From Halorubrum sp. CBA1125 (GTDB lineage Archaea > Halobacteriota > Halobacteria > Halobacteriales > Haloferacaceae): a stretch of 64,000 bases of DNA. The DNA lies in NCBI RefSeq assembly GCF_009742825.1, contig NZ_WPCE01000001.1, positions 38,778-102,777 on the forward strand, in the 5' to 3' direction. Made by a program: the position numbers and the translations under genes. Of the stretch, positions 10,293 to 37,880 are shown in pieces (the first letter of the stretch is position 1; every line of letters begins with the position of its first letter). The notes under the pieces were generated by a model that was given only the letters and a program-made list of their open reading frames with translations, was not told the origin of the DNA and did not search any database.

Positions 10293-11825
10293 CTATGACA
10301 CTTTTTCAGCCAATTCAAGTACGGGGATTGTCCTCGGGTTCTCACCTCCATATCGGATCACATTTTCCTGGAAATCGAAGCGGATTGGCTTCCCCATATA
10401 CGGTGAGCGTTCGACCTGGGATAGGGAATCAAGGTCGCCCAGTTTCCAACAGACGAATCGGTCGATGTGATTCAGCGGAGTTTCGTCCTCAAAGAAGTCG
10501 CTGAGTTTGACCTGTAACGAAGCGTTCTCTAACTCGCCTTCCGTATCGAGAATAGCATTCACTTCATCGTCCATCTGAAAGTCGGCTATCTTGATAGTCT
10601 CCGGTGCTCCATTAGCGCTGTACCGCTCTAACATAGCAATAACCTCTGCAGAGTTCGACGGAGAGAGACCGCCCTGTTCTTCTGTGCGCTGTCGGCGTTC
10701 TTCGAGAGTGCTCTCTTGAGATCGGATACTCCGTTTCTTATCCTCCAACTTGCGCCGCTCAATGTACTTCTGGTACCAAGAGTCCTGGCACACCTTGGTC
10801 ATAAACCGATCCAGCTCATCCGTAATCGCTTGATAAACGTCGCCGGATTTGTTGCGGATCTTCTCACGGTTAGCAGAGAGTTCGAGTTCCTGGCAGTTGG
10901 CAACGAAGAAGAAATGGAAGAACTCGTTGTCGGCACCGATTGCATCGTTGTACCGTTCGACCTTGATGTGGTCTTTCGCTAGCCAGATGCCGAATTGAGC
11001 GGAGTGCTTGCCGTACGTCGGTAGCTCGTTCCTGGCTTCCTTTCCGCCTACCATCCCCACAACTTCAATCGTCAACTCACGCCCGTCATCAAGAGCTACG
11101 GTCAATTCTCTGGGGGGGTAGTGTTTGCACATCATCTCAGCGACGAGTTCACCATCCGGATCCCGGTTTTCAGGAGAAAACTCCAGACGATTATCGGTCT
11201 GGATTTGATCCCGTGTATCGTCGATTGTAGAAGAGAGCTCGACGGTGATATCCATGCGGTGGAAATCGTCGGTGAAGTGCCAGGCGGTCGATCCACCGAT
11301 GGTTTTCCATTTGATATAGTGCTCAATTTTGTTGTAGGTGAGCTTCTGGGGATCGAACCCTTGCCCTGCCCGGAATCCATGTACTTCAATCCGAGTTCGT
11401 GATGGTTCGTCAGTATCTGTCTTCTCGATTGAATAGGTGGGTAGTTCCCGGTTGTTAAGCTTCGCCCACGGCTGATTCATTACTGATTCGATCCGTGTAC
11501 CGTCCTTGACCGTCTCCACACGGATCTCATCACTCTTGTAGTAGATTTTAGTACCGTGTCCCTTGTATCCGATTGCGTCGTCCTTGTTGGAGTTACCAAG
11601 GTCGAAGAACGACGATAGATCGTCTTCGTCCATCCCGTGACCGTCGTCCTCGATAACGAGGGTGTTTCGACCCTCCTCATCCTGTTCGATGTTGATATCG
11701 ACTTGCGTAGCGTCGGCGTCGTACGAGTTCGATAGCGCTTCTCTGATGACCTCCAAGGGGTCTTCAAAGTCGCTAGCTATCTCGATGAACTCGTTGACCT
11801 CGTTGACTTGTGGTGTCTTATGCAT
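10293..11825 (-). CDS. GHKL (HSP90-like) ATPase of the modification operon
   Basis: The 510-aa protein has a GHKL ATPase domain in its first 130 residues: N box EVIREALSNSYDADA, G1 box IEDDGHGMDEDDL and G2 box IGYKGHGTKIYY. The remainder is a charged helical region (ERRKLEDKKRSIRSQESTLE) with no fold I recognise. It overlaps the dpdA-like gene upstream by 8 nt, so it is translated from the same message as the DNA transglycosylase. Its role may be an ATP-driven clamp or switch, as in MORC or MutL-type proteins; that is inference. I do not know it as a standard part of bacterial Dpd clusters. Confidence 0.85.
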   Translation of the reverse strand: MHKTPQVNEVNEFIEIASDFEDPLEVIREALSNSYDADATQVDINIEQDEEGRNTLVIEDDGHGMDEDDLSSFFDLGNSNKDDAIGYKGHGTKIYYKSDEIRVETVKDGTRIESVMNQPWAKLNNRELPTYSIEKTDTDEPSRTRIEVHGFRAGQGFDPQKLTYNKIEHYIKWKTIGGSTAWHFTDDFHRMDITVELSSTIDDTRDQIQTDNRLEFSPENRDPDGELVAEMMCKHYPPRELTVALDDGRELTIEVVGMVGGKEARNELPTYGKHSAQFGIWLAKDHIKVERYNDAIGADNEFFHFFFVANCQELELSANREKIRNKSGDVYQAITDELDRFMTKVCQDSWYQKYIERRKLEDKKRSIRSQESTLEERRQRTEEQGGLSPSNSAEVIAMLERYSANGAPETIKIADFQMDDEVNAILDTEGELENASLQVKLSDFFEDETPLNHIDRFVCWKLGDLDSLSQVERSPYMGKPIRFDFQENVIRYGGENPRTIPVLELAEKVS

Positions 11826-13065
11826 AGGTTGTGTCTGTTTCCTCGAAGTATGGGTTAATTCGTTCGTTGATTAGCTGGTAGGCGAACTTCCGGAAGCCTT
11901 TCTGATCCTTCACGGCCTCCTCCAGATACTCAGCCACCCGTTCTTTGTCTCCCTCAGCGATCAATTGGCGGAACTTGCGAAGCTCCCGTTGCTGAACCGC
12001 GAGATTATGCGCTGCCACCGAGCCGAGGATATCCTTCTGATACAGGTCCTCCATCTCGTTCCGCATGCGTGCTCGGTGGAAGTCATCGTTACAGACGCGG
12101 CACTCACAGGAATCGAAGTTAGCTTCATCAATCGGAACAGTCTCGAACAGGTTGACGCAATACTTCCCGTTGATCGCTTGGTGTAGGTAGGAGGCAGAAT
12201 CGAAGGTATCGGCCCCGACAGCAACGAGTAGCGGCATTGCGTTACCCGAGATCCCTAATACGTGTAGAGGGAGCTCGTCATACCCTCGCTGTTGCATCTC
12301 CCGCTTACAGTCGGATACTGCTTCGACGAGAACCTCAACGTTGTCTTTTCGCGGAACGAGGCTACCCAACGCAATCCCGTCGAACGCTTCGGGGATTGGT
12401 TCTGCGAGTTCGTCTTCAATGAGGTCGAAGGAGCGTTCGAGCATCGCTTCATAATAGCCATGCACCGTGAGGTAGCAGGCCCCGTCAACCTCGTCACGAC
12501 GCTCTGCGAAGCGGGCAGCGTTGGCGGCTGTCTGCTCCATCTTTTCGATCCGCTCCTCGAACTCGTCATCCGGATGGATCGGGTGATCCAGGTTGACCAC
12601 GATGTCTGGTCCTAGAGCCAGCTGTATATCCAGCGCCTTGTCCTGATCGATGTCCTTCTCGAAGTCCTTACCTTCTAGACCACCCTGCTTCAGGATTTTG
12701 TAGCCGCCGGAGTCTGCGAAGATCATCCCGTCATAGTCGCTGAAACAGTCCCACTCGCGGATTTCATTGTTGAGATACCATTCCAGCTTCTTCTCCCGAA
12801 TGCCGTAGTCGGCCAGGGAGGAAATCGAAGTCATCACCCCGTGGAAAAGGTCACTGTAGTCTTCACCACCGGTGACTTCGTTATCGTGAGCGAGGAACTC
12901 CTTTACCGTACGGTGGACACCGCCACCAAATAGCGCGCCCTCGTTGCCACCGCCGTAGAAGTTGATCACCGGGAACAGGTGCGGGGTTTCCAGGGTACGG
13001 TCGTTAATCTGGAGCTGGCCACGTCGTGCCTCGCCTGCCTCCGCAACAACATCGAATGAGACCAT
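11818..13065 (-). CDS. dpdA: DpdA-like DNA guanine transglycosylase (TGT superfamily), copy 1
   Basis: DpdA exchanges guanine in DNA for preQ0 (7-cyano-7-deazaguanine), as its TGT relatives do in tRNA. Numbering from ATG 13065, the 415-aa protein has the general-base region FADSGGYKIL (Asp near 118), the nucleophile region VGADTFDSASY (Asp near 289), a Gly-rich base pocket IALGSLVP, and the TGT zinc site CECRVC plus His in AAHNLAVQ (near 320-353). A GTG at 13077 would add four residues. No PUA domain is present, which separates it from archaeal tRNA-guanine transglycosylase. It lies between the GHKL ATPase gene and a DUF6884-like gene in one operon. Confidence 0.85.
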   Translation of the reverse strand: MVSFDVVAEAGEARRGQLQINDRTLETPHLFPVINFYGGGNEGALFGGGVHRTVKEFLAHDNEVTGGEDYSDLFHGVMTSISSLADYGIREKKLEWYLNNEIREWDCFSDYDGMIFADSGGYKILKQGGLEGKDFEKDIDQDKALDIQLALGPDIVVNLDHPIHPDDEFEERIEKMEQTAANAARFAERRDEVDGACYLTVHGYYEAMLERSFDLIEDELAEPIPEAFDGIALGSLVPRKDNVEVLVEAVSDCKREMQQRGYDELPLHVLGISGNAMPLLVAVGADTFDSASYLHQAINGKYCVNLFETVPIDEANFDSCECRVCNDDFHRARMRNEMEDLYQKDILGSVAAHNLAVQQRELRKFRQLIAEGDKERVAEYLEEAVKDQKGFRKFAYQLINERINPYFEETDTTYA

Positions 13066-13069
13066 ACTG

Positions 13070-13549
13070 TCAGTCACCGTGCACTGGAATGGAACGGCCG
13101 CTGGAAACCAAGTGCTTCAGCCGCTTTCCTTTCATCCCGATACCGGTACCTTCGATGTAGTCAACGGGTACATCAACGGCAGATTCAACCCCATCGATAG
13201 CGGGAAGATAGTCCTTTCCAAGATTGATCCATACCTTGTCATACCCGTTAGTAGTGACTTTGCTGGCAATAGCGCTGACGACTTGGTCGTTCAGTTCGTC
13301 AGCGCGTTCTGTGTCCATCCGACGGTCATAGTATCCGATTTCCTGATCAGGTTCTACAACCCCGTGCTCCGCAGATATAATCATAATGTCAATTTCAGAC
13401 TGAAATCGACCCGTCCGCAATGCCTTTTTTATGATCCTGAAGAAGTATCCATCGTACAAATCGAGAGCAGGAACCGGTGTATCCACCTGTTCCTTCGTTG
13501 CAGAACACGATTGGACTAATAACGACGTCATATACTCTGCTGATCGCAT
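13070..13549 (-). CDS. DUF6884-like protein, ArcS-domain relative
   Basis: This 159-aa protein reads TSLLVQSCSATKEQ near the start, then IMIISAEHGVVEPDQEIGYY in the middle and INLGKDYLPAIDG. The same order of motifs occurs in the C-terminal domain of dpdA copy 2: PCSQEKPYS, LYGPVPEDFE, then AYTTNKAYRQAID. I infer that both belong to the DUF5591/DUF6884 group that includes the lysine-transfer domain of archaeosine synthase ArcS. It would then process the preQ0 placed in DNA, working with dpdA copy 1. A second ATG at 13531 (MTSLLVQ) is an equally good start. Confidence 0.65.
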   Translation of the reverse strand: MRSAEYMTSLLVQSCSATKEQVDTPVPALDLYDGYFFRIIKKALRTGRFQSEIDIMIISAEHGVVEPDQEIGYYDRRMDTERADELNDQVVSAIASKVTTNGYDKVWINLGKDYLPAIDGVESAVDVPVDYIEGTGIGMKGKRLKHLVSSGRSIPVHGD

Positions 13550-13608
13550 GAGGAGACCTTAGTTCTTGGGGAAAACCACTAGACATCTGCAGGATAGTCG
13601 ATTACGTA

Positions 13609-15510
13609 TTACCGTGAACTGGTAAATCGGCCAACGAGCTCGTCGATATTTTCACTGCGGAAGTGCTCGGTCAACTGGAGCGCTCGCGGGTCGGACGGAT
13701 ATATCTCGCCGCGACCGTACTGGGTAAACGCTTTGTCAATCGCCTGGCGGTAGGCTTTGTTGGTCGTATAGGCCAAGATATGGTCGAATTTCTCACCGTA
13801 TTGGTTCAGGTACTGTACGAGCCGATTCGCAACGAGTTCAACCTGGTCGTTATCGGCAGTCGTCAATACGTACTCGTAGCTCATCACCGGGTCAGCCTCC
13901 TCGAAGTCCTCAGGTACTGGCCCATATAACCCTGAGATGGACACCTTATGATATCGCTCACGGTAGTCCTCAAGACGGGAGAGGACAGCCTGGTGTGTCC
14001 GTGACTCCGAATACGGCTTCTCCTGGCTACAGGGTAGAATCAGTAGTACATTTGCCTCGCTCGGCGGCTGATAATCGTCGTGCTGGAGGATGTCGAAGTC
14101 GTTTGGCCCATGCTTCAACGAAATGGTCCGTTTCTTCCGTGTCGTGTCCTCAACTCCTTCGAGGAAGCTAGATAGCTTGGTCTGGAACGTCTCGTCATCC
14201 GGCCCTGCAACTAACCCCTCGTAACCGATGTCTGCAAGTTGCTCGCGGAGTTCTGGGTTGTGTAGCTGAGCCCGCTTCAGCGCTTTCTCTACGATATTCT
14301 TCCCCTGAGCGAAGTTAGCAACACGTTCGAGTAAACGCCCCTCGTCAATAGCGTCACGAACTTGTTGCATCTGGCGGCTGTACAGCTCGAAGTTATGATG
14401 AGCTATCTGTGCGTAGTATTCGCTCTTGAAATGCGTCCCGTGCTCACCCTCAATGGGCTTGTTACTGACCTCAGATTCTAGCAGGGCGTGTCGCATATCG
14501 TCTAAGTGGATGTTCTGACAGGCCTGACAGTCACAGGGCCAGTCATCCCAGTCATCAATCTGATCAAGACTAATCCGTTGCCAGGTGTCGGGGTGGATGA
14601 ACTTCTTGTTCCGAGCTGCGTACTGATAGCTCCTCGAATCGAACGTATCTACCCCGAGGAGAGATAGGAGAGGACAGAGCCTCCCGCTTATTCCGAACAC
14701 GTGGAATGCGATTTCGTCGTAACGGTCCTCAGGTATCGCGTCTCTTGCCCCTTGAACGATATCGACCAAGGTATCTGGAGAGCTGCTGAGAGGGACAAGT
14801 GAACCGAGAGCGAACCCTTCGAAGGCCTCATCAAGTTCATCGGCACGGTCCAAGAATTGGCTGACATACCAGTTGACATCCTCGTAGTTGTGGCCATGTA
14901 TGGCCACATACATAGAGGGCGTCTCCTCCAGCTCGCGTTCGTCAAGCAACTGGAGAGTCTCAACCGCGTTATCGATACTCTTCTCCATCCGTTCAGTGGT
15001 TTCTTCCTTATTCAGGTTCTGTGGAATCGGAAAGTCCAACGTGGCAATGATATCCGCGCCGTAGTCCAGCTGCAAGTCCAAGATGCTCTCTGGATTCGTG
15101 TAGATATCCCAGTCGTTCTCACTACCGCCTTCGCCAGGCGTCTGTCCGAACTTCGTCGAGTTCATCAGCTTAAATCCGCCCGAGTCGATGAATAGCGGTT
15201 GATCAAACCCGGGTTCAACGTCACTCTCCTCGAAATGCTGTTTGAGCGGTTTCTCACGCCACTCCTCCAAATTGTCAGGGGTGAGATTGTAGTCGAGAAA
15301 CGACATCGCTTGAAACATAATCCCCTGGACATTGTCGCTCTCGAAGAGGTGCCGACGGGTATACCGCCAGATACCACCGGATTCTGTTGTTGTCCCTCCG
15401 ATTAGATTTACCACAGGCAGAAGCTCGGGCGTCTGAATACGGCCGGCAGGCGTGTCTATTTCGCCTCGACGGCCGTATGCAGCCTTTCCAAGAGTCCTGA
15501 ATGCCGACAT
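13609..15510 (-). CDS. DpdA-like transglycosylase fused to an ArcS-like DUF5591 domain
   Basis: The 633-aa protein has an N-terminal TGT-like domain (about residues 1-460): LFIDSGGFKLMN, FALGSLVPLS, LLGVDTFDSRSYQYA and the zinc site CDCQAC with a later His in AHHNFEL. The C-terminal domain (about 487-633) carries PCSQEKPYSESRTH, YGPVPEDFEEADP and AYRQAIDKAF, matching the hallmark Cys-Ser-x-x-Lys-Pro-Tyr motif of ArcS, which adds lysine to preQ0 during archaeosine synthesis. No PUA domain follows. The fusion suggests insertion and further conversion of preQ0 by one polypeptide. ATG 15510 was preferred to the TTG just before it. It shares a 144-bp intergenic region with divergent queD. Confidence 0.85.
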   Translation of the reverse strand: MSAFRTLGKAAYGRRGEIDTPAGRIQTPELLPVVNLIGGTTTESGGIWRYTRRHLFESDNVQGIMFQAMSFLDYNLTPDNLEEWREKPLKQHFEESDVEPGFDQPLFIDSGGFKLMNSTKFGQTPGEGGSENDWDIYTNPESILDLQLDYGADIIATLDFPIPQNLNKEETTERMEKSIDNAVETLQLLDERELEETPSMYVAIHGHNYEDVNWYVSQFLDRADELDEAFEGFALGSLVPLSSSPDTLVDIVQGARDAIPEDRYDEIAFHVFGISGRLCPLLSLLGVDTFDSRSYQYAARNKKFIHPDTWQRISLDQIDDWDDWPCDCQACQNIHLDDMRHALLESEVSNKPIEGEHGTHFKSEYYAQIAHHNFELYSRQMQQVRDAIDEGRLLERVANFAQGKNIVEKALKRAQLHNPELREQLADIGYEGLVAGPDDETFQTKLSSFLEGVEDTTRKKRTISLKHGPNDFDILQHDDYQPPSEANVLLILPCSQEKPYSESRTHQAVLSRLEDYRERYHKVSISGLYGPVPEDFEEADPVMSYEYVLTTADNDQVELVANRLVQYLNQYGEKFDHILAYTTNKAYRQAIDKAFTQYGRGEIYPSDPRALQLTEHFRSENIDELVGRFTSSR

Positions 15511-15654
15511 CAAATAACCTGTGTAGTAACTCTATCGTTGCCCTCAATTAACTTCTCGTTCTCAAAACCGTCAGATACCCAATCTATTTTCGGGACTCTC
15601 CATAACTTTCGACGAGTGGTTCAAAGTTAAGTATGCCACAGATAATACCTCAGT
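15511..15654. promoter_or_regulatory. divergent promoter between modification and preQ0 operons
   Basis: The 144-bp spacer separates minus-strand dpdA copy 2 from plus-strand queD. On the plus strand aaagttaagtatgcc (about 15624-15638) centres 25 bp before ATG 15655, a good TATA position for a leaderless queD message. AT-rich sequence near 15540-15560 could serve the minus strand. Shared control of both operons is likely but not shown. Confidence 0.5.
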
Positions 15655-16122
15655 ATGGCTCAAGACCTATCTAGAGAGTACCCCCTCACATCAGAGGATC
15701 TCTCCGAGGGTGAACGAACCTTACACGTCGGACGTGACCAGCCGATTCGCCTGAGTACAGGACACCGGATTCTACACCATGACGGCAAGTGCAGCCGTCC
15801 TCATGGGCATAACTACAAAATCAGCGTCTCGATAACTGGCACCCTGACCAGCGAAGGATGGGTCATCGACAAGGGAGACGTCACTTCTGTATTATCTGAG
15901 TGGGATCACCGATTTCTCGTGGAGAAAGGCGATCCACTGATCGAGGCTTTTGAGGCCAGCGGCGACGACGATGCCCTAATCGTGCTCGACCAGCCCCCGA
16001 CAGCCGAAGTGATGGGGATCGTTCTTGAACGACGGCTGGAGGAAACATTGCCGGAGACGGTCAGTAATGTCGCAGTTGAGGTTCGAGAGACCGGTGAGCT
16101 CGCTGCCGGAGAGGCCCTATAG
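15655..16122 (+). CDS. queD: 6-carboxy-5,6,7,8-tetrahydropterin synthase
   Basis: QueD converts dihydroneopterin triphosphate to 6-carboxytetrahydropterin, an early step to preQ0. The 155-aa protein has the zinc ligands His37 (STGHRI), His50 and His52 (CSRPHGHNY), the catalytic Cys46, an EWDHRFLV segment and PTAEVMG near residue 122. It is the first gene of queD-queE-queC. FolE, which supplies the substrate, is not in the window and is presumably chromosomal. A second, island-borne set of preQ0 genes makes sense if DNA rather than tRNA is being modified. Confidence 0.93.
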   Translation: MAQDLSREYPLTSEDLSEGERTLHVGRDQPIRLSTGHRILHHDGKCSRPHGHNYKISVSITGTLTSEGWVIDKGDVTSVLSEWDHRFLVEKGDPLIEAFEASGDDDALIVLDQPPTAEVMGIVLERRLEETLPETVSNVAVEVRETGELAAGEAL

Positions 16123-16126
16123 AGCA

Positions 16127-16909
16127 ATGCCGGTGAATTCGGATGTTCCAACGGTTGAGGAGGGTTCTACTGGCACAGAAACGAAGGACGGGCTGCCAGT
16201 GAATGAATTGTTCTACTCGTTACAAGGCGAAGGGAAGATCGCCGGGATGCCGAGCGTGTTCGTTCGGACGAGTGGTTGCAATCTCCGGTGCTGGTTCTGT
16301 GACTCGTTCCATACCAGCTGGGAGCCGACCCACGCCTGGCTCGATATCGATGCCGTCATCGACCGTGTCACCGATTATGAGAAAGCAAACCATGTCGTCG
16401 TGACCGGCGGTGAACCATTACTCCACGATGAGACCACCGAGCTGTTAGACCGCCTCAGCGACACCGGCTACCATACTACTGTCGAAACCAACGGTACGAT
16501 CTATCACGATACTTCCATCGACCTTGTGAGCATCAGTCCAAAACTGGCGAGCAGCACTCCGACCGCGGCAAAGGACCCGCAGGGCGATGGAGAATGGGCT
16601 GACCGGCACGATGATCGAAGGATCGATATAGACGCCCTCTGCAAGCTGGTGGAGACCTATACTTTCCAGCTGAAATTTGTAGTCACAGATAGAGATGATA
16701 TGCCCGAGATCAACCGGTTAGTTGATCAGCTCCGGGACGCCGCAGATACGGTGATTCAAGATTCAGACATTTTGTTGATGCCGGAGGGTTCGACCCGTGA
16801 ACGATTGTCAGAAACCCGCGAACTGACCGCTGAGATAGCGATGGAGCACGGATATCAATATACGCCCCGGCTTCACGTTGATCTCTGGAATGACGCTCCG
16901 GAAACGTAA
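16127..16909 (+). CDS. queE: 7-carboxy-7-deazaguanine synthase (radical SAM)
   Basis: QueE converts 6-carboxytetrahydropterin to 7-carboxy-7-deazaguanine. The 260-aa protein has FYSLQGEGKIAGMPS, the radical-SAM cluster motif CNLRCWFC (Cys51, 55, 58) and the SAM-binding VVTGGEPLLH, followed by VETNGTIYHD and VSISPKLASS. ATG 16127 follows the queD stop by 4 nt; longer in-frame starts would lie inside queD. It is the second gene of the preQ0 operon. Confidence 0.94.
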   Translation: MPVNSDVPTVEEGSTGTETKDGLPVNELFYSLQGEGKIAGMPSVFVRTSGCNLRCWFCDSFHTSWEPTHAWLDIDAVIDRVTDYEKANHVVVTGGEPLLHDETTELLDRLSDTGYHTTVETNGTIYHDTSIDLVSISPKLASSTPTAAKDPQGDGEWADRHDDRRIDIDALCKLVETYTFQLKFVVTDRDDMPEINRLVDQLRDAADTVIQDSDILLMPEGSTRERLSETRELTAEIAMEHGYQYTPRLHVDLWNDAPET

Positions 16910-16926
16910 AATCAAATCATACAACC

Positions 16927-17637
16927 ATGACGACTAATCAAGCAGGTAGCACGGAAAGTGCGGTTATCCTTGTATCGGGCGGAATGGATAGTGCGACTGC
17001 AGCTTTTGAGGCGAAGCACAGGGGGTATGACTTGTACTTCCTCCACACGACCTACGGCCAACAAACAGCGGACAAAGAGTCAGAGTGCGCCCGAGCATTG
17101 GCCGACTATATGGATGTCGCGGACTTCCTTCACATCGAAACAGACCACTTAGCCCGGATCGGTGCTTCCAGCCTCACTGACGAGAACATCGATGTCGAAG
17201 AAGTCGATCTTGATAGCGATGAGATACCGTCAAGCTACGTTCCGTTCCGGAATTCGAACCTGCTATCGATGGCTACGTCGTACGCTGAAGCAAACGACTG
17301 TGGGGCCGTCTTTATTGGTGCACACAGCGAGGACTACTCCGGTTACCCGGATTGTCGCCCGGAATTCTTTGATGAGTTCCAACAGGTCATAGATATCGGG
17401 ACGAAACCAGAGACGTCAATCGAATTGGTGGCACCGTTCGTGGATTGGACGAAAACAGAGATCGCGGAGCGTGGGCTAGACCTCGATGTTCCGTACGAGC
17501 TTACGTGGAGCTGTTACCGCGATGAAGAACCAGCCTGTGGTACTTGCGATGCATGTGCCTACCGACTCAAAGCATTCCAAGACGTAGGAATGAAGGATCC
17601 GATTAGATATCGAGAGCGCCCTAGCTACAGTGATTGA
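16927..17637 (+). CDS. queC: 7-cyano-7-deazaguanine (preQ0) synthase
   Basis: QueC turns 7-carboxy-7-deazaguanine into preQ0 with ATP and ammonia. The 236-aa protein has the PP-loop SGGMDSATAAF (residues 17-27), YGQQTADKE, FIGAHSEDYSGYPDCRPEF and the C-terminal zinc motif CYRDEEPACGTCDACAYR. It starts 17 bp after queE. Unlike some phage systems there is no glutamine amidotransferase fused to it. Its product is the expected substrate of both DpdA-like proteins. Confidence 0.95.
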   Translation: MTTNQAGSTESAVILVSGGMDSATAAFEAKHRGYDLYFLHTTYGQQTADKESECARALADYMDVADFLHIETDHLARIGASSLTDENIDVEEVDLDSDEIPSSYVPFRNSNLLSMATSYAEANDCGAVFIGAHSEDYSGYPDCRPEFFDEFQQVIDIGTKPETSIELVAPFVDWTKTEIAERGLDLDVPYELTWSCYRDEEPACGTCDACAYRLKAFQDVGMKDPIRYRERPSYSD

Positions 17638-17697
17638 TAAGACATAGGGACAATAGAGGACAAACGATTCTTGTTGGTGTGTCCTAATGCTCACACT

Positions 17698-18171
17698 ATG
17701 GGCAAGTTTGCGGACGAAGTTGTTCATCGGTTGAAAGACCACTTAGAACAGTTCTGCTCATCTTATGCGTGGGAAACAGAGTACCCTATTGCACAAACAC
17801 CGATTGACATAGCAGGAAACGATGGTGATCGATACGTTTTAATCGAACTCGAATGGCGTCGAGCTGACCCGGCCGACAATGCTGCGAAGATTTTTCGCCA
17901 CCTCAGTACGAGAGAGATCCCAGCTGACCAAGTTAGAATTTTACAGTTATTCACCAATCATTACAATCTCAGCTCTGGCGGTGTCTCGTCCAAGCGAAAG
18001 AACGCGGAGTTCGTAGGAGAAACCGCAGCGGAGTTACTGGAGCATCTCACCTACCACCCAATTGATTTTGAAATAGATCCGCCTAAATCAGGAGAAGACC
18101 GACCCCCACAATGGAAAGACACCACAGATTCGACAGCTGAGAAACTCGCGTCAATAATTGACAAACCTTGA
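17698..18171 (+). CDS. uncharacterised protein, possible PD-(D/E)XK fold
   Basis: The 157-aa protein starts MGKFADEVVHRLKDHLEQF. Its middle reads TPIDIAGNDGDRYVLIELEW followed by RRADPADNAAKIFRHLS, and an Asp followed by Glu-x-Glu in beta-strand-like context resembles a PD-(D/E)XK nuclease core. I used ATG 17698 rather than the in-frame ATG at 17671, which adds nine atypical residues. It lies 60 bp after queC on the same strand, so it may be co-transcribed with preQ0 synthesis. Function unknown; the nuclease idea is inference. Confidence 0.55.
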   Translation: MGKFADEVVHRLKDHLEQFCSSYAWETEYPIAQTPIDIAGNDGDRYVLIELEWRRADPADNAAKIFRHLSTREIPADQVRILQLFTNHYNLSSGGVSSKRKNAEFVGETAAELLEHLTYHPIDFEIDPPKSGEDRPPQWKDTTDSTAEKLASIIDKP

Positions 18172-18214
18172 TACGCGGATGTTCTCTTCGCCGTTGCCGC
18201 TGTTTTCCGAGGTA

Positions 18215-18655
18215 TCAAAGTCCTAGCTCTGTATCTAAGTAGGTGCTAACGCTTCCGTACTCATTCTCCATAATTTCACAGAGCTCACGGTTGACCGTCA
18301 GACCACTGTGAGTGATATTTGCAGATCCTACGTACACCAGTTCGGGGCCCACGACGGCTTTCGCATGTAGATCATCTACGGTAGTCATCGAGGTATTTCC
18401 CATACGGGAGACGAGGGAGCGCATGTAGTCGTTGTGTTGTTCGCCAGTACGAACGTAGAAATCGACATCCGTGCTCAGCTCTCTAATCGCCGCGGACAGG
18501 GAAAGTCGTCGGCTTGACAATTTATCGGTGAGTGGAAAGCGCAGTTCCACATCGCTAAGCCAGGGCGAACAGATCGCCACACGTTGGGCGTGAACGAGAG
18601 AGTACCCAATAAAGTACGAGAGTCCACTAGAGGGTAAAGAAAACGCTCGTACCAT
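18215..18655 (-). CDS. dpdK: phospholipase D-like protein DpdK
   Basis: The 146-aa protein has one HKD-type motif, LHAKAVVGPELVYVGSANIT (His-Lys ending in the Asn/Ser of the family), after an N-terminal strand VAICSPWLSDVELRFPL. PLD-fold proteins of this kind are nucleases or nuclease-like subunits in Dpd (DpdK) and DISARM (DrmC) systems. Its ATG 18655 lies inside the end of dpdJ, so the two are coupled, as in bacterial dpdJ-dpdK. It is the last gene of the restriction arm. Confidence 0.82.
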   Translation of the reverse strand: MVRAFSLPSSGLSYFIGYSLVHAQRVAICSPWLSDVELRFPLTDKLSSRRLSLSAAIRELSTDVDFYVRTGEQHNDYMRSLVSRMGNTSMTTVDDLHAKAVVGPELVYVGSANITHSGLTVNRELCEIMENEYGSVSTYLDTELGL

Positions 18656-22739: not shown

Positions 22740-22761
22740 TCAATCTTTCCACGAGAGGCGA

Positions 22762-31000: not shown

Positions 31001-32792
31001 CACTAATGGGCGCGAACTCCTCGTCACCGTTTCCAGGATCAATCTCAACATATGGTTCATGACAACGACGGCAAAACCGCACTTCAGGGAGACGGCGGTT
31101 ACATTCGGGGCAACGGCTGTCGCGGAACACTTTCTCGCATTCTCGGCACCAGTACACCTTGTAAGGAGGTTTTAGGAAGACGTGATATTTCTCGGTCACG
31201 ACGCCCGCGAGACGCCCGAATGCCATAACCGTCTCAATGACCCCTTCAGGGTCTTCGACGCCTTGGTCCCGAGCGCGAGTTAGTAATTGGTCGTAGGATT
31301 TGAAGCCAACGACACCAGTAGTGTCCGTCTCGAACCACGTAGCAAACGTAGCGACTTCAGGGACGTTTGTCAGTACATATTCGTACCAGCCACTGTTGGT
31401 TCCGCTCTCGTTGATAACGGCCTCGACGAGTTCGTTCCGTCCCTTGACGGAGTTGAGTACTGACTCGACGTCATCAAACTCCGTTCTAGCCAGTGATAGG
31501 AGTCTCGTTTCGATAGCGTCAGTTGCCCACTCTCCGATATTGGCCTCGATTTCAATTTTCTCGTCTGCTACAAGGCCGACTTCACGCGCCGTTGAGAGCG
31601 CATCTTCGAGGTCGTATTCTCTAAGATGGCTCGTCGGATCATCAATGTCCCCGACTGCGAGTGCCAGTACGTGAACAAGATCGGCGATGTCACAGGGAGA
31701 AAACCGTCCGAAATCAGGTTCGCCAAGAGTTGGAAAGTCTCTTCCAGTGAACCCAATTGTGTTAATTTCGTCTTCGTCCGTCCCAGTCAACGAACTCGCC
31801 AGCTCTCGCGGGTTATCCACCGTGGCAGAGACCATCGATATCTGGGGATCCCGGTCGTCGTAGAAGTGCTTTAGACGCCGGGAGAGAAGGGAAACTGCCG
31901 CACCTTGGATCCCGCTCCAAACGTGGGCCTCGTCGAAGACGATGTGCTCAACGGGATGTTCACCGGGCGTATTTCCGAGTACATCCCGGGTTTCATCGTT
32001 GTCACTGATGAACATATAGTCGAGTGCCTCCGGGACGGTCAGCAGAATATCAACACCGCGCCGGATGCTATCGCGGGTAACCCGTATCCAGGGGTACTGG
32101 TTATCGTCCGTCCCCACGTTCGTTTCGCCCAGCACTCGGAGTTTGTCATCCGGGTTCCGTGGATCCTCAAGCCCACGGATATAGGATCCCGGTTCGACTT
32201 CGTGGTCTCGTGTACCGACGCGGGTAGGCGTGTCGCCGTCCCAGATACCGATTGTGATCCGTTCGTCGGAGTTTCGATAGCGATTGATTTGGTCGAGATA
32301 GGCGATGAATCGATTTAACTGATCCACGCCCAGGGTCTTCATCGGATAGAGAATGATCGACTTCAGCCCATCCTCCTGGGTCGAGAGACAGTGATTTAGA
32401 ATAGGGAAGAAGAAGGCTTCCGTTTTCCCGGTAGCCGTCGGTACGGCGAGGACGTTGTCGCGGTCCGTCGTCTCGATCTGCTCGATCATTTCGGCCTGAT
32501 GCTGATACAGTGACCCCTCTTTGCCACCGAAGAGTTCCTCGTTGACAGCATCGATTATCTCGTCACGGTAGCCGAGGCCGTTAAGAAACTCCGACGCCGG
32601 CTGATCGTGGAACTCTGGAGCATCGACGAACTCGACGTATGGACCCTTCTGTTCGATCAGGTCGTTCTCGACGAACGACTGGGCATTCGTGATTCCGTTC
32701 ACCTGGTTTAATTTCGTCATCCGGCGGTTCCACCAGGTAATTTCTGCGGCTCGGTCTTTCGCGCTCGCAAGCGTATCTTGAGGTGTTTGCAT
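28056..32792 (-). CDS. DEAD/DEAH helicase with DUF1998/MZB-type C-terminus
   Basis: The 1,578-aa superfamily 2 helicase has Walker A AVPTATGKTEAFFFP (near 117), ILYPMKTLGVDQLNRF, the DEAH box HIVFDEAHVWSGIQG, SATPTMELGVDIGTLD and motif VI YVQRSGRTGRSRGS. Several zinc-ribbon-like Cys clusters occur in the middle (CRECEKVFRDSRCPEC, CPGCEKW, CHNCGASLE). The C-terminus IVDSRQGGNGVTWQVLQ and CDRCVDYCDECLLLAR is the DUF1998/MZB type found in YprA/MrfA, Druantia DruE and DISARM DrmB. In a Dpd context it takes the place of DpdF or DpdE, but I cannot say which, if either, is its ortholog. Confidence 0.88.
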   Translation of the reverse strand: MQTPQDTLASAKDRAAEITWWNRRMTKLNQVNGITNAQSFVENDLIEQKGPYVEFVDAPEFHDQPASEFLNGLGYRDEIIDAVNEELFGGKEGSLYQHQAEMIEQIETTDRDNVLAVPTATGKTEAFFFPILNHCLSTQEDGLKSIILYPMKTLGVDQLNRFIAYLDQINRYRNSDERITIGIWDGDTPTRVGTRDHEVEPGSYIRGLEDPRNPDDKLRVLGETNVGTDDNQYPWIRVTRDSIRRGVDILLTVPEALDYMFISDNDETRDVLGNTPGEHPVEHIVFDEAHVWSGIQGAAVSLLSRRLKHFYDDRDPQISMVSATVDNPRELASSLTGTDEDEINTIGFTGRDFPTLGEPDFGRFSPCDIADLVHVLALAVGDIDDPTSHLREYDLEDALSTAREVGLVADEKIEIEANIGEWATDAIETRLLSLARTEFDDVESVLNSVKGRNELVEAVINESGTNSGWYEYVLTNVPEVATFATWFETDTTGVVGFKSYDQLLTRARDQGVEDPEGVIETVMAFGRLAGVVTEKYHVFLKPPYKVYWCRECEKVFRDSRCPECNRRLPEVRFCRRCHEPYVEIDPGNGDEEFAPISVGSPVDSCPGCEKWVNLTDAGVPTSSLLSYMLTEVCRHTPSEKTLVFSDSHSSAESVGDRIIDTEYGLMAETLYLQELIEAGGKKDNYELFNTVSTRLREEYWEPLIQNEIDEDGTAYNFLRSLLDDIESHAMLHNCESLLDGALVTADVVADLDDPEELVLAHEIYKLFTLGQGASFTYKKVSIDGLTREKLIDRLESRTRFTEDWIDERLNRLLSSFLEEGIITEQPLDEVKTAVRNANLDDGSRKQVQEYIENAREQIESAGIMSEPPESGVFTRIPRIDSSTLELVETAAFCADCYSAYPATSDGRGVEICHNCGASLETYRRFTRGSDGELTADPGYAQVESGWEYAIDHWAHDVTRPLTNGGEPEFITVGIHKSNIPHTLRGAIEEGFRKDDPDVNIVSATPTMELGVDIGTLDTVAQVGVPPTLTNYVQRSGRTGRSRGSSSLVMTVIRGNHPVDGHYYANIDSFLNDFEPVRVPDPEDFDELLAGHVVTEVFAYLARNPHESGVFERMYALSEPKHENMGSFVSAVEKNLDILQRFIRDEMWDTLNPYIRDVFGQRGVEILDEVFNSDGPLSMDRRTEQTFSRLTAASGSSDTNKNITEQNGRLDRWLDRLGYLANYRNFGQDFPVKFTGRRESIEFEASGRLYDLFPGEENDHGAVTTLHGTKYLVNDVRGSSTPLTEISVCNNEECDRPFQSYPPGETECPHCGTELEETKVHGISSVECKTAMGGQRGYSTRALMSTYVSETDASQKTEDVELFRLPAEVNYGQQEVTDFVYAFERRHTNSPDKTILRSEALIERESSSSTEDQSWEEMLEDVEEEVYRPVGQQYHTQGVTVQFERDAFEERYERTTHETKSWPQALVSLQQALEKAIAIVAECDRSDFRVKAMRTADTVDVHIVDSRQGGNGVTWQVLQSLSDLEARVVEVADCDRCVDYCDECLLLARTPAYYLEKDLLDRRMLAATVGKDESEVESI

Positions 32793-32873
32793 TTGTGAGG
32801 CGTTGGTTGGTTGTCTGGTTGGTTTATGGGCGGGACATAAAACTGCTATCCGATGACGGACGCAGTCGATTCT

Positions 32874-35800
32874 TTAGTCACTGAAGCCCGTGTACACCTC
32901 CAGATTCACCTTACGTCCGGCGGCCAGTTCCGGCACCTCGGACTGCGTGAGCGTGGCCTTGCCGTCCGGCTGACGGTCAGCCACACCCAGAAGTTGATAC
33001 AGTTTCTTCCAGGCCTTCTGACGCTCGTAGTCCTTGACGTCGGGACTGATTGCGCGGAATATTGACTTCGAGGCGATGATGAACACTTTTCGCTTCATCC
33101 GCGAGATACCGACGTTGAATCGGTTCTCGTCGAGCAGGAAATCGGCGCGGGAGTTAACGTAGCCCTGGTTACCTGCCGTCATTGATAGCACCATCACGTC
33201 CTTCTCGTCTCCCTGGAAGCGCTCGACCGTGTCTGCCGTAACCCCCTGAGGGATACTGTCCTGCATCCTCCGGCGCTGAAGTCGGAAGGGGACGACAACT
33301 CCAGCGGTCACATCATCTGATCCGGCGCTCTGGTCCGAGGCGATGGGAAGTGCTTCTAATAGCGTGTTCGTTATCGCTTCTTCGACAGGGCTGTCTTTGG
33401 TGAACTGGTCGTCGTCGTGGAGGAGCAGTGTTACCCGCGGTTCGGGATTAAGTGCAGCCTGGGCCCAGTTGGGGAGGCCTGAAGCACGGGTCACATCCGG
33501 AATCAAGGGCCTATTGACCCCAGACGAGAGCGACAGGTTGTCCTTTTGATAGAACAATTCTGTCTCCAGATCCGCCATCGGGGTCGTGAATCGATACGTC
33601 GTGTCGAACTGCACGAGAGGGAGGACGTTACCGGGGTTCGACCACTGAGGGGGCTCACGCTCTAAGTACTCCAGCGTCTCGTCGTCGTCAGTCTGTCCCC
33701 GGAGGAAACGCATCAAGTTCAGCACTGAGAGCGACGGCGTGTGTTCCTCTATCGTCTTGCGATCTTCTGACTCCCAGTCGTGGCTCTGAATGGGGCGCAT
33801 CTGCCGATGATCGCCGATCAACATCAGCTGACGACTCTCTCGCAGGAATGCACCGAGCAGGAACAGCAGCGGCAAATCCATCATACTCGCCTCGTCGATC
33901 AGCGCATAGTCGAACACCCGGGCATCGCCGGATCGAATTAGCGCGTCAACGTTGTCCTCGTTGTCGAGAGTGATGTCGTCCACGTCCTCATCAATGATCG
34001 AGGCAACTGCATTAGTCAGATTTCGGAGCGTCACGGGTGTCGTGAAAAATATGACCTGTTCAGCCTCGTCACTGGCCATCGTCTCCTCCCAGAGTTCCCG
34101 CAGCCTTGACCGGTCTTCGTAGTACTGCAGATCCTCGAAGTTAGGGTTCGAGTGACTGAGCCGCTCACCGGCTGAACGGACGCGAACTAACCGGAGATCG
34201 GTCAGCATACCCTTTCGATCCATAAGCCGTTCGTGGGCATCAGCGACCGCCTCAGCGGCTTCATCGACAGCCGTGTTCGAGTGCGCCGAGACTACGCCTC
34301 CGAACGACTCCTCCTTCTGTTCGAACGCGTAGGCCCGACCGAGGGCCGCCGGCGCCTGGCCGTACGATGTCTTACCAGTCCCAGGAGGCCCCTGTGCCAC
34401 GACCACAGAGTGATTCACCTGGTTCACGAACTTCTTCTGCTTCTTATTCGTTGACTCGTCCATGACGTCGTCGAACTCGGTCAAGAACGACTGCAGGGCC
34501 GACTGAGAACAGAACGGCGTCGAGTACTGTAGCGCCGTCTGTTGGTTGTGGTCATAGAGGTCGAGGAGGCGGTTATGAATATCGTTCTGCCGCGCGTACC
34601 GGATGGCCTGACGGGCGCGAGAGCCGGAGAAGTCATCGACGGCCGGGTCGAGCACCCATGCCGTACCGTCCTGAACGAGTTCGACATTGTCTTCTAATTC
34701 GTCGGGATCGTTCGTCCAGCCCTTGTGCCACACCATACAGGGTTCACCACGTCGCCGATACCGCCACGGGGCACTGATGCTGACTGTTCCCGCAGTGGTG
34801 TTTACGTGATTAACGAACCCGAGTACGGAGTTCGCATAGTTCGTAGGCTTCTCGACCGTTTCCTCGTAGGATCCATCAGATTGCTCTCGAAGCGGAGTCA
34901 TCACGACCATATCACCCGCTTCGATTGCGAGCGGTGTCTCCGCCTGTAGCCCGCTATCAGGCCCGTCACCGATATCTCGGATAATCCGGCCGTTGATCTG
35001 CCGGTCGTCGTCTTCCGGCGTTCGAGTACATTCGAAGGGAATAGCACGACCAGCAGCGACACGTTCCGCCAGGGATTTCCGGTAGTGGTTTTCCCGGTCT
35101 CGCTGTCGGGTCCCAAATTCGAGATTCTGGTACTCAACGACGGTGGACTGGAGAGTACTGTTACCCAGAGAGAGATTGGCGAGATTCCCGATGTCGATTG
35201 CCTCCTTGGGAGTGAACGCGTCTTTACCGTCGATAGACCGTTCGATGTGCTGGTATGCACCACAGACGGCTTCGACCATCTCCTCAATGTCGTCGAGAGA
35301 GATTCGCTTCGACTGCCCGTCAGTGTGGTGGCGGAATCGGATGATCCGGTCGCGGGTCTCCTGGTCGTCCGCCCAGTCGGGCTTCATCCGGTCCAATTCG
35401 TCGCAACCCCATATGTACTCCAGCGGAAGCCCGTCTTGATGGCGGCCTAGTATCGGATAATGGTTTTTGAAGTAATCCTTGCCGTTCGCGTCCGGAACCT
35501 GATACCCTTGGTCGAATCGCGGGACGATGCGGTCTCCTTGCTTCTTGAAAGGAACCCCGACTTCGAAGAACCCCTCAGCGAAGGTAGTCTTCAGAGGAGT
35601 TCCGCTACTACGCGTGTCCTCCCACGAGAAGTCGTTCCCGCCGAAGAACTGAGTCGCCGTCTGGACGACCCCGAGGCCAGGATAACGTAGCGCGTGGCGC
35701 TGGCGGAAGTCATCCTGAAGGATGCTAACGGCCTCCTGATCGATGTCCGCGCGAAATCCGAGCATCGTCTGGATGGCCTCGGAGCCGTACAGCTTGTCGT

Positions 35801-37343
35801 GCCGTTTGACCGCATCCATCAGCGCGTCACGCTGGCTGTTAGAATACGGGTAAAGGTGGATGTAGCCATCATCAGAGCCGTGGCCCGTATTACCACTGAG
35901 ATCAGGGGCTACCTGATCTACAGCGTTGGCCAGCTTCTCGAAGAAGTCTTCGAGGAGACGCTTTTCTTCGTCAGCGGCGTCGTCGTGATCGTCAGGGAGG
36001 CCGGACGGACGAGCGATGACGAACACGCCGTCGTCTCCTGTTTCTTCCTCGTACCGAGTGGATGTTACCTTGGCTGCGAGGAGAACAACCCTGTCACGAA
36101 CGTGGTCTACCTGGACATAGGGGTAGATCCGAATCAGCGACTTCCGGGGATACTCGTCCCAGCCCTTCATACTCGGGTCGTCATCGGGAAGGTTGCTTCC
36201 GGTACCGATCAGGTACTCGCTCCAGGGACCTACGCCCCCCGCTGTTCGCTCCCATTGTGAGTTGAACTCGGGATCGATCTCGCGGAGGAACCGATGGGCG
36301 ACTTGCGCCAGATCTGCAAGGTTTGAGATTTCCGTCTCTCGCTGGATGTCACGAACCTTATCAGGGTCTCTCGGTTCGATGTGGTCGTACCGATACGGCT
36401 TTCGCGCCCATCCGTCAGTAGGGAGTTCGTAGAGATCGACGATGTCGTCGATCTCCGTAATTCCGAATTCACGGAGCGACTCCTGGACACCCTCGGAAAG
36501 ACCAAATGTACCCAGAAGTTCCAGTCCGTGGTTCGTTACGCCCCGAGCGAAACACTTCGCCTGCTTCGAACAACCCTCACACCGCGCGTCGATACGGTTG
36601 TTCGGGGGGTCGTTGGGGTCCGCATCGTATAGCAGCTCGTCTAAGGTTCCATTCTCTTCGAGTAGTAGACCGATGTCGTTTTTCCGTGTTTCCAGTTCGA
36701 ACGTCCCTAAGCGGTCGAGTCGTAGGCCGGACGGAGTCACGACTGCTGAGAGTGGAGAGTCCTGTGCGACGATACTCGCAGCTATCTCTACCTCGATGTC
36801 CAACAGGTTCTCGAACTGCAGAACGTACACCGCGGCCTGCATTTGATGATGCGTCTTGGCAGTCGTCGCGGATTTGACCTCGATGACGCGGATACCTACC
36901 CCTGATTCAGTCGGATAGAGGATGACGACATCGACTTCGCTCCGGACAGGCCAAACACCGACGTCCACCTCTAGGGGAGTCTGATAGAGAACGACCGGTC
37001 GATTGACCGTCCCGTCTTCGACGTGCTCTACCAGCTCTTGGATCCGCTGCATATCCCTTTTCGTGTTCCCCTGCCATGTTTCGTCGAAGTTCAGCGAACT
37101 AGATGATTGGTCTGTCCCTACACTATAGACGTCTTTTTCGAGCAGCGCCTCTAATTGCGACTGCTCGAACTGCATTCCAGTCTCCGCGTACAGCGGACTG
37201 AGAGGCACATCGTCAACGTCGGCGTTGTCGAAGAACCCGTCCACATACTCGTGAAACAGGTACATCGAACACTGCCCTAATTTGCAGAACTGAGCGATAC
37301 GCGACGGATGAAGTGTCTGGCGTTTCGAGCGTGTCTTACTCAT
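32874..37343 (-). CDS. Dna2-like Fe-S nuclease / SF1 helicase fusion
   Basis: The 1,489-aa protein starts MSKTRSKRQTLHPSRIAQFC at ATG 37343; the upstream in-frame extension is low-complexity and lies in the neighbouring gene. An N-terminal Cas4/RecB-like nuclease has SEVDVVILYP and RVIEVKSATTAKTHHQMQ (Asp, then Glu-x-Lys), with Cys20 and Cys25 (FCKLGQC) plus CEGCSKQAKC as likely Fe-S ligands. The C-terminal half is a superfamily 1B helicase: QGPPGTGKTSYG, ALIDEASMMDLPLL, DHRQMRPIQ and ENRFNVGISRMKRK. The order matches Dna2. It sits 81 bp upstream of the DUF1998 helicase in the restriction arm. Confidence 0.85.
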   Translation of the reverse strand: MSKTRSKRQTLHPSRIAQFCKLGQCSMYLFHEYVDGFFDNADVDDVPLSPLYAETGMQFEQSQLEALLEKDVYSVGTDQSSSSLNFDETWQGNTKRDMQRIQELVEHVEDGTVNRPVVLYQTPLEVDVGVWPVRSEVDVVILYPTESGVGIRVIEVKSATTAKTHHQMQAAVYVLQFENLLDIEVEIAASIVAQDSPLSAVVTPSGLRLDRLGTFELETRKNDIGLLLEENGTLDELLYDADPNDPPNNRIDARCEGCSKQAKCFARGVTNHGLELLGTFGLSEGVQESLREFGITEIDDIVDLYELPTDGWARKPYRYDHIEPRDPDKVRDIQRETEISNLADLAQVAHRFLREIDPEFNSQWERTAGGVGPWSEYLIGTGSNLPDDDPSMKGWDEYPRKSLIRIYPYVQVDHVRDRVVLLAAKVTSTRYEEETGDDGVFVIARPSGLPDDHDDAADEEKRLLEDFFEKLANAVDQVAPDLSGNTGHGSDDGYIHLYPYSNSQRDALMDAVKRHDKLYGSEAIQTMLGFRADIDQEAVSILQDDFRQRHALRYPGLGVVQTATQFFGGNDFSWEDTRSSGTPLKTTFAEGFFEVGVPFKKQGDRIVPRFDQGYQVPDANGKDYFKNHYPILGRHQDGLPLEYIWGCDELDRMKPDWADDQETRDRIIRFRHHTDGQSKRISLDDIEEMVEAVCGAYQHIERSIDGKDAFTPKEAIDIGNLANLSLGNSTLQSTVVEYQNLEFGTRQRDRENHYRKSLAERVAAGRAIPFECTRTPEDDDRQINGRIIRDIGDGPDSGLQAETPLAIEAGDMVVMTPLREQSDGSYEETVEKPTNYANSVLGFVNHVNTTAGTVSISAPWRYRRRGEPCMVWHKGWTNDPDELEDNVELVQDGTAWVLDPAVDDFSGSRARQAIRYARQNDIHNRLLDLYDHNQQTALQYSTPFCSQSALQSFLTEFDDVMDESTNKKQKKFVNQVNHSVVVAQGPPGTGKTSYGQAPAALGRAYAFEQKEESFGGVVSAHSNTAVDEAAEAVADAHERLMDRKGMLTDLRLVRVRSAGERLSHSNPNFEDLQYYEDRSRLRELWEETMASDEAEQVIFFTTPVTLRNLTNAVASIIDEDVDDITLDNEDNVDALIRSGDARVFDYALIDEASMMDLPLLFLLGAFLRESRQLMLIGDHRQMRPIQSHDWESEDRKTIEEHTPSLSVLNLMRFLRGQTDDDETLEYLEREPPQWSNPGNVLPLVQFDTTYRFTTPMADLETELFYQKDNLSLSSGVNRPLIPDVTRASGLPNWAQAALNPEPRVTLLLHDDDQFTKDSPVEEAITNTLLEALPIASDQSAGSDDVTAGVVVPFRLQRRRMQDSIPQGVTADTVERFQGDEKDVMVLSMTAGNQGYVNSRADFLLDENRFNVGISRMKRKVFIIASKSIFRAISPDVKDYERQKAWKKLYQLLGVADRQPDGKATLTQSEVPELAAGRKVNLEVYTGFSD

Positions 37344-37743
37344 CGAAAACCACCTCCAGAGCGGCGCTCCACGACGCGCGGTTATCCCGGCACCACTGGC
37401 ACTCCCTGTCGTCCGGTAGCCGGTCGTAACGGTAGCCACACCGGTCACACACGCAGAGGTGGTCGTCGTTGAGCCGTTCATCGCCCGTATAGACGACAGT
37501 AACGATAACCCCATCACGGGCGATGAGAACGGTTCCGCTCGGCTCATGTAGGCGTCCCTTGGTTCCTACGTAATCCGGAACGCCGACACTCGGTGATCGA
37601 TACCATGCCTCTCGGATATCGAACTCCGTCACGCCTGCACGTTGGAACCACCGCATACGTGCATGGTTAGACGGGTGCGGGACGTTTTCCGGGGAGTCGC
37701 TTGTTACTCGTTCCCCGACTTGGGACTGAGCCTCGGCACTCAT
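37336..37743 (-). CDS. zinc-ribbon protein with DUF4258-like N-terminus
   Basis: The 135-aa protein has SNHARMRWFQRAGVTEFDIR then VLIARDGVIVTVVYTGDE, a pattern seen in small RelE/DUF4258-like proteins, followed by a zinc ribbon CDRCGYRYD and CQWC. It overlaps the Dna2-like gene by 8 nt and is preceded by a short ORF with ATGA overlap. It could be a nucleic-acid-binding or regulatory subunit. Function is not known. Confidence 0.7.
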   Translation of the reverse strand: MSAEAQSQVGERVTSDSPENVPHPSNHARMRWFQRAGVTEFDIREAWYRSPSVGVPDYVGTKGRLHEPSGTVLIARDGVIVTVVYTGDERLNDDHLCVCDRCGYRYDRLPDDRECQWCRDNRASWSAALEVVFDE

Positions 37744-37880
37744 TCCGTACGCACCCCCTTAGTGCGTGTGCGCCCACGCGTGTGAGCTAGTCCGCGAAGT
37801 GCGACCACACGAACCCCGGTCGCAAACTGCTGATCAGTCGTCTGTACGTCCGTCGTGTTGTTGAATTTCCCAATGGTCAT
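37740..37880 (-). CDS. 46-aa small ORF heading the restriction operon
   Basis: ATG 37880 opens MTIGKFNNTTDVQTTDQQFA and ends in a basic tail (RGLAHTRGRTRTKGVRTE). The stop overlaps the next ATG as ATGA, the same coupling used throughout this operon, which is the main reason to call it. No clear TATA box lies 27 bp upstream. It may be a leader peptide or a small regulator; no family recognised. Confidence 0.4.
   Translation of the reverse strand: MTIGKFNNTTDVQTTDQQFATGVRVVALRGLAHTRGRTRTKGVRTE

Follow-up and report, generated by a model that had tools for sequence, protein, structure and literature searches.

A candidate Dpd-like locus for 7-deazaguanine DNA modification and restriction in a haloarchaeal genomic island

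Gene content of the locus

The stretch analysed here, referred to as the window, comprises 64,000 nt of Halorubrum sp. CBA1125 (assembly GCF_009742825.1, contig NZ_WPCE01000001.1, positions 38,778-102,777 of the forward strand), and the coordinates below are positions within it. A candidate Dpd-like modification and restriction locus is located at 10293-37547, on an island with a G+C content of 51-58% between flanks of 63-70%. The host assembly totals 3.23 Mb in 379 contigs and is 84% complete. Pfam domains over the locus include two TGT domains, DUF5591, DUF6884, GHKL, QueD/QueE/QueC, PLD, two DEAD helicases and AAA_11/AAA_12. The locus had been described earlier from the sequence alone (the original prediction), and the open reading frame (ORF) positions and coarse gene layout given there agree with ORF calling and domain scans. 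The genes of the modification arm are as follows.

10293..11825, minus strand: GHKL ATPase (510 aa; HATPase_c_3, 60.4 bits)
11818..13077, minus strand: TGTa, a TGT protein without PUA (419 aa; Pfam TGT, 108.9 bits)
13070..13549, minus strand: DUF6884 protein, DpdC-type (DUF6884, 52.2 bits; cut-off 30 bits)
13609..15513, minus strand: TGTb, a PUA-less fusion of TGT and ArcS-type DUF5591 domains (634 aa; TGT, 107.7 bits; DUF5591, 67.5 bits)
15655..16122, plus strand: queD (PTPS, 68.4 bits; QueD-like phrog_2389)
16025..16909, plus strand: queE (QueE-like phrog_2076, 188.4 bits)
16927..17637, plus strand: queC (QueC, 244.6 bits)

Modification genes

As originally predicted, both proteins of the TGT superfamily lack a PUA domain. 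The Pfam scan identified neither PUA nor TGT_C2 in TGTa or TGTb; with the same library one canonical haloarchaeal ArcS, scanned as a control, showed both domains, though the single TgtA frame scanned showed neither. The conserved residues of TGTa are Asp122, Asp293 and the set C324, C326, C329 and H357. In alignments, the DSGG motif and both Asp residues are kept in 15/15 TGTa and 13/13 TGTb sequences, and the CCCH zinc ligands are kept in all but one TGTb. By these residues, both proteins carry complete active-site signatures. The archaeal enzymes of tRNA archaeosine synthesis, ArcS and TgtA, share the TGT fold with the locus proteins but differ at the DSGG site, where canonical ArcS has DAGS (7/7) and canonical TgtA has DSGS (all five sequences covering the site). 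The DUF5591 domain is also shared, with the motif PCxxxKPYxxSxxH, which we take to be the ArcS signature; it is intact in TGTb here, in 19 of 20 relatives and in 7/7 canonical ArcS proteins. TGTb therefore resembles ArcS in its DUF5591 domain and motif but not in the PUA and TGT_C2 domains, and its score against the NCBIfam ArcS model is 124.1 bits, under the cut-off of 440.

In a first tree, TGTb formed a clade with support 98, as did the tRNA enzymes (98), with TGTa as the remainder; DpdA, the phage 9g protein and the second Paenibacillus TGT grouped with support 82. A second tree also included DpdA and a short TGT (hTGT2) from haloarchaea. Here hTGT2 joined the tRNA enzymes (support 80), and the DpdA side, including haloarchaeal DpdA, held together with support 95. 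Relatives of both proteins occur in other settings: a plasmid of Haladaptatus sp. YSMS36 encodes two TGTb genes (L102:33855-35819 and L102:36533-38554), a metagenome-assembled genome (MAG) of Nanohalobium encodes a TGTa relative with 52% identity (P0046), and a Deltaproteobacteria MAG encodes a distant one with 28% identity (L170).

The gene between the two TGT genes, missing from the original prediction, encodes a DUF6884 protein of the DpdC type. All 19 of its aligned relatives match the PADLOC DpdC model at E <= 0.1 (best 4.9e-7), with PDC-M57A, a candidate family of unknown role, as the best PADLOC match above DpdC. Comparison of the family with three bacterial DpdC proteins by hhalign gave a weaker result (E 1.9e-4, prob 47). 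In Paenibacillus the DUF6884 domain is fused to a named DpdA, and dpdC is given as DUF6884 in the available part of a published dpd survey (PMC11888242). On these matches the protein is the DpdC counterpart, and it is proposed to act on the nitrile of preQ0. The GHKL ATPase is proposed to stand in for DpdB. The original prediction had noted no dpdB, and this was borne out, with none among the scanned proteins and PF14072 in 0/30 DpdJ-bearing genomes; the DpdB of locus L099 matches that model with 90.7 bits.

The predicted queD-queE-queC operon was recovered at 15655-17637 on the plus strand by Pfam and PHROG matches. The queE ORF as called overlaps queD, and its true start is probably downstream. 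The queC gene of the locus is the only full-length copy found in the host genome, which is incomplete. In the locus of genome G358 (L046), extra queC fragments lie beside an intact queC and resemble decayed copies.

Restriction genes

The restriction arm is encoded on the minus strand and, in the direction of transcription, has the order Dna2-MZB helicase-orfI-orfG-DpdH-orf22-DpdJ-DpdK.

18215..18664, minus strand: DpdK-like PLD protein (NCBIfam DpdK, 46.3 bits, cut-off 100; PADLOC DpdK, 41.5 bits)
18627..22739, minus strand: DpdJ-like helicase (1370 aa; NCBIfam DpdJ, 172.6 bits, E 9.9e-51, cut-off 800)
22762..23436, minus strand: orf22, at the dpdI position, DpdI homology unsupported
23426..26331, minus strand: DpdH-like P-loop ATPase, frameshifted (ORFs 25486-26331 and 23426-25600; DpdH matches of relatives, hhalign)
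26328..27278, minus strand: orfG, DpdG-like (hhalign to DpdG, prob 93, E 3.3e-7)
27145..28059, minus strand: orfI (304 aa), no Pfam domain, conserved core (102 homologues)
28056..32792, minus strand: DEAD helicase with MZB, DUF1998-type (DEAD 71.2, Helicase_C 44.3 and MZB 31.9 bits)
32874..37547, minus strand: Dna2-like protein, optional, with AAA_11/AAA_12 helicase (Pfam)

The DpdK-like protein has a Pfam PLD match of 25.8 bits, just under the 27-bit cut-off. The H-A-K residues are invariant in 29/29 aligned DpdK-like proteins; the motif reads HAKAVVGP here, and the last place of HxKxxxxD is Asp in 20 of the 29, Glu in five and Pro in four. In the reverse search, archaeal profiles recover DpdJ in 4/4 bacterial Dpd loci with 110-135 bits, and DpdK in three of the four.

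The ATPase of the original prediction is present but needs correction, as its two ORFs are one gene split by a frameshift. An intact relative of 969 aa aligns through residues 1-265 and 266-969 in two frames, and in 25 listed relatives the ATPase is encoded by one uninterrupted frame of 956-1006 aa. The NCBIfam DpdH model matches 12 of the 22 intact relatives searched at E <= 0.1, the best at 6.8e-10, and hhalign of the ATPase against four bacterial DpdH proteins gave E 2.4e-16. The restriction arm of this copy may therefore be inactive, unless the frameshift is an artefact of assembly. The matches of the host TgtA (contig C205, 1804-2647 of G000) are likewise split over two overlapping frames, which makes assembly errors a fair suspicion; frameshift errors may sit elsewhere too.

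For orfG, whose true start is probably near 27149, mismatched hhalign controls gave E 0.12 and 0.57, and direct model searches gave DpdG matches in 0/5 (NCBIfam) and 0/20 (PADLOC). The identification of orf22 as DpdI is not supported, with an hhalign prob of 1.2, NCBIfam DpdI matches in 0/5 and position as the only argument. The predicted model of orfI (pLDDT 90) has no clear fold match. The GHKL ATPase, DUF1998 helicase and ArcS-like domain named in the original prediction were all confirmed by Pfam, as was the Dna2-like protein, whose Cas4-like nuclease part is possible but weakly matched (Cas4 models at about 12 bits).

The restriction arm is, by these comparisons, homologous to bacterial DpdH, DpdJ and DpdK, and perhaps, by profile comparison alone, to DpdG. 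Of the minus-strand run dpdG-H-I-J-K claimed originally, the order and the kinship of DpdH, DpdJ and DpdK thus stand, DpdG is backed by profile comparison only, and DpdI is not supported. The search against Dpd families that had been suggested as a check matched DpdJ and DpdK below their cut-offs and DpdH and DpdC through relatives, scored TGTa far under the DpdA cut-off, and gave no match to DpdI.

Distribution among haloarchaea

A sample of 391 haloarchaeal genomes was searched with thresholds of E <= 1e-20 for DpdJ and E <= 1e-60 for TGTa and TGTb, giving 30, 43 and 39 positive genomes, respectively. TGTa is found in 29/30 DpdJ genomes (exception G237) and TGTb in 28/30 (exceptions G143 and G296); the Fisher values, 3.9e-32 and 1.5e-31, ignore shared ancestry. 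Among the 29 DpdJ regions fetched (27-38 kb each, some cut), the ATPase, orfG, orfI and orf22 are found in 25, DpdK in 28, TGTa in 24, TGTb in 22, GHKL in 23, the Dna2-like protein in nine and queC in 11. DUF6884 and GHKL adjoin TGTa in 33 of the 34 fetched regions having TGTa. The order DUF6884-TGTa-GHKL on one strand is conserved in all 23 DpdJ regions with the three genes and in 10/10 further regions. This recurrence of the same genes together indicates that the make-up of the locus is not due to chance.

Four loci of genomes without TGTb (G143, G296, G028 and G291) each encode a second, distant DUF6884 protein, whereas the other regions encode at most one; a fifth such genome, G371, lies outside this comparison. 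The pattern is suggestive, though no proof, of two alternative routes for processing the base, one through the ArcS domain and the other through the second DUF6884.

The restriction arm of the window exhibits 95.9% DNA identity over 19.5 kb to that of a relative, G165, and the modification arm 89.1% over 7.8 kb. The housekeeping TgtA fragment of the host has only 60% protein identity to its G165 counterpart, so the near identity of the restriction arm points to recent transfer. Outside the island, TIGR01210, presumably the RaSEA family, is over its cut-off once in each of the eight genomes tested. Seven of these eight also encode a separate canonical ArcS, which is missing only from the incomplete host genome.

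A second haloarchaeal type with DpdA

DpdA itself is over the cut-off in 55/391 haloarchaeal genomes, the host genome not among them. Only one of the 55 (G291) also has TGTa, which is rarer than chance (P 0.009). In nine fetched DpdA loci, DUF6884 is present in 9/9 and a short second TGT in 7/9. By gene content, other haloarchaea thus hold a second, DpdA-containing type, which probably lies behind the DpdA homologue mentioned for Haloarcula vallismortis in the available part of PMC6884629. The DCGA/DSGG motif is missing in five of six aligned haloarchaeal DpdA proteins, one of the five having Asp there, though the alignment is uncertain at this site; the short TGT beside DpdA keeps all catalytic residues in 7/7. 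The two proteins possibly form a pair of a non-catalytic and a catalytic TGT. These loci resemble the locus in the window in their second TGT and DUF6884 and differ in having a DpdA family member and other helicases.

Comparison with known systems

The bacterial Dpd islands used for comparison were those of Enterobacter cloacae pPOL9A, Nostoc p057, Paenibacillus pART37 and the Caulobacter S6 plasmid. Bacterial Dpd genes follow the order E-F-G-H-I-J-K-D, and the locus has in common with them the order G-H-(I)-J-K, a DpdC-type DUF6884 protein and a PLD protein ending the run. As in the locus, queDEC lies nearby in two of the four islands. The locus differs from bacterial Dpd in having no DpdA family member and no DpdB, and in encoding two other TGT families, a GHKL ATPase and an ArcS domain. 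The MZB helicase and orfI occupy the place of dpdE/dpdF, and DpdD gave no match among the scanned locus proteins. The Paenibacillus variant (L101) is like the locus in its two TGT proteins and in having no annotated dpdB, although its gene table is incomplete; it is unlike the locus in that one TGT is a DpdA (446.7 bits), fused to DUF6884, and in having no ArcS or GHKL match. The DpdJ of the Caulobacter S6 plasmid (L128:7289-13597, 2102 aa) is a Dna2-DpdJ fusion that matches the Dna2 profile with 103.8 bits; at least one bacterial Dpd machine thus includes a Dna2-like part.

Two further systems are known from sources available in part. BRC systems with a TGT share with the locus a TGT without DpdB but are built on BREX and HerA/FtsK parts (PMC12839542), none of which is over the Pfam cut-off in the locus. 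The dG+ pathway of phage 9g resembles the locus in combining preQ0 genes with a step towards archaeosine in DNA, but it uses DpdA and Gat-QueC (PMC6884629), whereas the locus is a host island with a TGT-ArcS fusion.

Proposed function

The locus is probably a Dpd-like restriction-modification system that places 7-deazaguanine bases in host DNA and restricts DNA without them. As far as its sequence can tell, it would work like Dpd while standing outside the family defined by dpdAB. QueD, QueE and QueC would supply preQ0 locally, and TGTa, with TGTb in its own right, would exchange selected guanines in DNA for preQ0, while the GHKL protein, driven by ATP, may open or clamp the DNA. Hydrolysis of the nitrile by the DUF6884 protein would give dADG; alternatively or in addition, the ArcS domain of TGTb would add lysine to the preQ0 base, which host RaSEA may turn into deoxyarchaeosine. 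The base put into host DNA is therefore likely to be dADG, deoxyarchaeosine or a lysyl-preQ0 base, DNA being the presumed substrate. Surveillance of incoming DNA, and its cleavage where the mark is absent, would fall to the helicases, the DpdH-like ATPase and the PLD protein DpdK, together with the Dna2-like protein where present. According to the available part of PMC11298593, ArcS of Thermococcus kodakarensis on its own adds lysine to the preQ0 nucleoside slowly and to the 5'-phosphate efficiently, and RaSEA completes archaeosine. Acceptance of these substrates by isolated ArcS indicates that tRNA is not essential.

A more specific division of labour is conceivable but doubtful. TGTb would insert preQ0 into chromosomal DNA and charge it with lysine, giving lysyl-7-deazaguanine or, after host RaSEA, deoxyarchaeosine; TGTa and DUF6884 would write dADG as a second mark; the GHKL clamp would replace the ParB-like DpdB; and unmarked DNA would be destroyed by the DpdG-H-J-K-type machine. 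This two-mark scheme fits the second DUF6884 in all four loci examined from TGTb-less genomes.

Several results weigh against a Dpd-like restriction-modification function. A DpdA identity of the TGT proteins is not supported: the NCBIfam DpdA model (cut-off 200) gives TGTa 26.8 bits and has no match to TGTb, both proteins fall in clades of their own, and a six-frame search of the host genome for DpdA gave nothing at E <= 0.001. The tRNA TgtA model TIGR00432 scores far higher (TGTa 126 bits, TGTb 115.4 bits), under its own cut-off of 350, and the nearest solved structure for both is the archaeosine TGT 1iq8. TGTb also joins the tRNA enzymes in the first tree (bootstrap 77) and the tRNA enzymes plus hTGT2 in the second (66), weakly in each case, so that the grouping with tRNA enzymes that the original prediction had named as evidence against itself is not firmly seen. 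On the restriction side, no locus protein reaches any NCBIfam equivalog cut-off (DpdJ 172.6 of 800, DpdK 46.3 of 100), the DpdK of this clade has Pro where 20/29 carry Asp after HxK, the ATPase gene is broken, and the 12 relatives that match DpdH do not include the one nearest to the window. At E <= 1e-3, none of the archaeal ATPase, orfG, orf22 and orfI profiles has a match in the four bacterial Dpd loci. The Km of ArcS for the nucleotide is high (433 uM; PMC11298593, available in part), and no DpdJ passes the threshold in 14/43 TGTa genomes.

The scores with tRNA TGT models, the structural match and the position of TGTb in the trees would suit TGTa and TGTb modifying tRNA or other RNA, with the helicases as a separate neighbouring defence system, and TGT and ArcS act on tRNA in archaea (PMC11298593, available in part). 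This explanation is nevertheless unlikely given the absence of PUA and TGT_C2 from both proteins, the DpdC-type partner and the presence of TGTa in nearly all DpdJ genomes; the host TgtA, and the separate canonical ArcS in 7/7 other genomes tested, can serve tRNA. The DpdJ-less TGTa genomes raise another explanation, in which the modification cassette moves about as a protective module that camouflages the DNA of an island or plasmid and is joined to varied restriction arms whose action is not keyed to the mark. In ten of these 14 genomes, which were fetched, DUF6884-TGTa-GHKL is present in all ten and TGTb in eight, while the neighbours vary, and the modification arm diverges more from G165 than the restriction arm does. 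Set against this are the 29/30 DpdJ genomes with TGTa and a gene order like that of bacterial Dpd, in which the mark is paired with restriction, and camouflage without coupling is considered quite improbable. Haloviruses with 7-deazaguanine DNA exist, according to the available parts of PMC6884629 and PMC8651126, and a modification-dependent (type IV-like) attack on such DNA could be imagined; it would be self-destructive, as the enzymes that presumably make the mark are encoded in the locus itself, and is regarded as very improbable.

Bacteria, phages and archaeal viruses are named in the available part of a 2026 paper as having 7-deazaguanines in their DNA, and archaeal cells are not (PMC13329287). 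A survey of dpd islands, which required dpdAB, covers eight bacterial phyla, and the word archaea appears nowhere in its text as available (PMC11888242). Confirmation of the Dpd-like restriction-modification function would show that archaeal cells mark their DNA with 7-deazaguanine. With its different TGT proteins and its spread among haloarchaea, such a system would extend Dpd-like defence to archaea and tie the archaeosine chemistry of tRNA to DNA marking. The locus yields a testable prediction about the DNA base, and cultured haloarchaeal hosts would allow a direct test.

Accessory gene and island features

One further gene lies between the two arms.

17671..18171, plus strand: orf17, an optional accessory protein with no assigned role (present in 7/29 DpdJ regions)

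In orf17, D46 and E59-L-E61 are kept in 8/8 aligned sequences; to us these residues recall the D...ExE site of BamHI-type enzymes, a likeness that no search supports. A TnpB gene (7305-8615) is located at the island edge. At 40101-40189, ARAGORN calls an unusual tRNA-like structure whose anticodon has only two bases; the call is probably spurious. A resolvase (40734-41636), a PDDEXK_4 nuclease (44688-45950) and a phage integrase near secY (50388-51518) likewise lie within the island or at its border.

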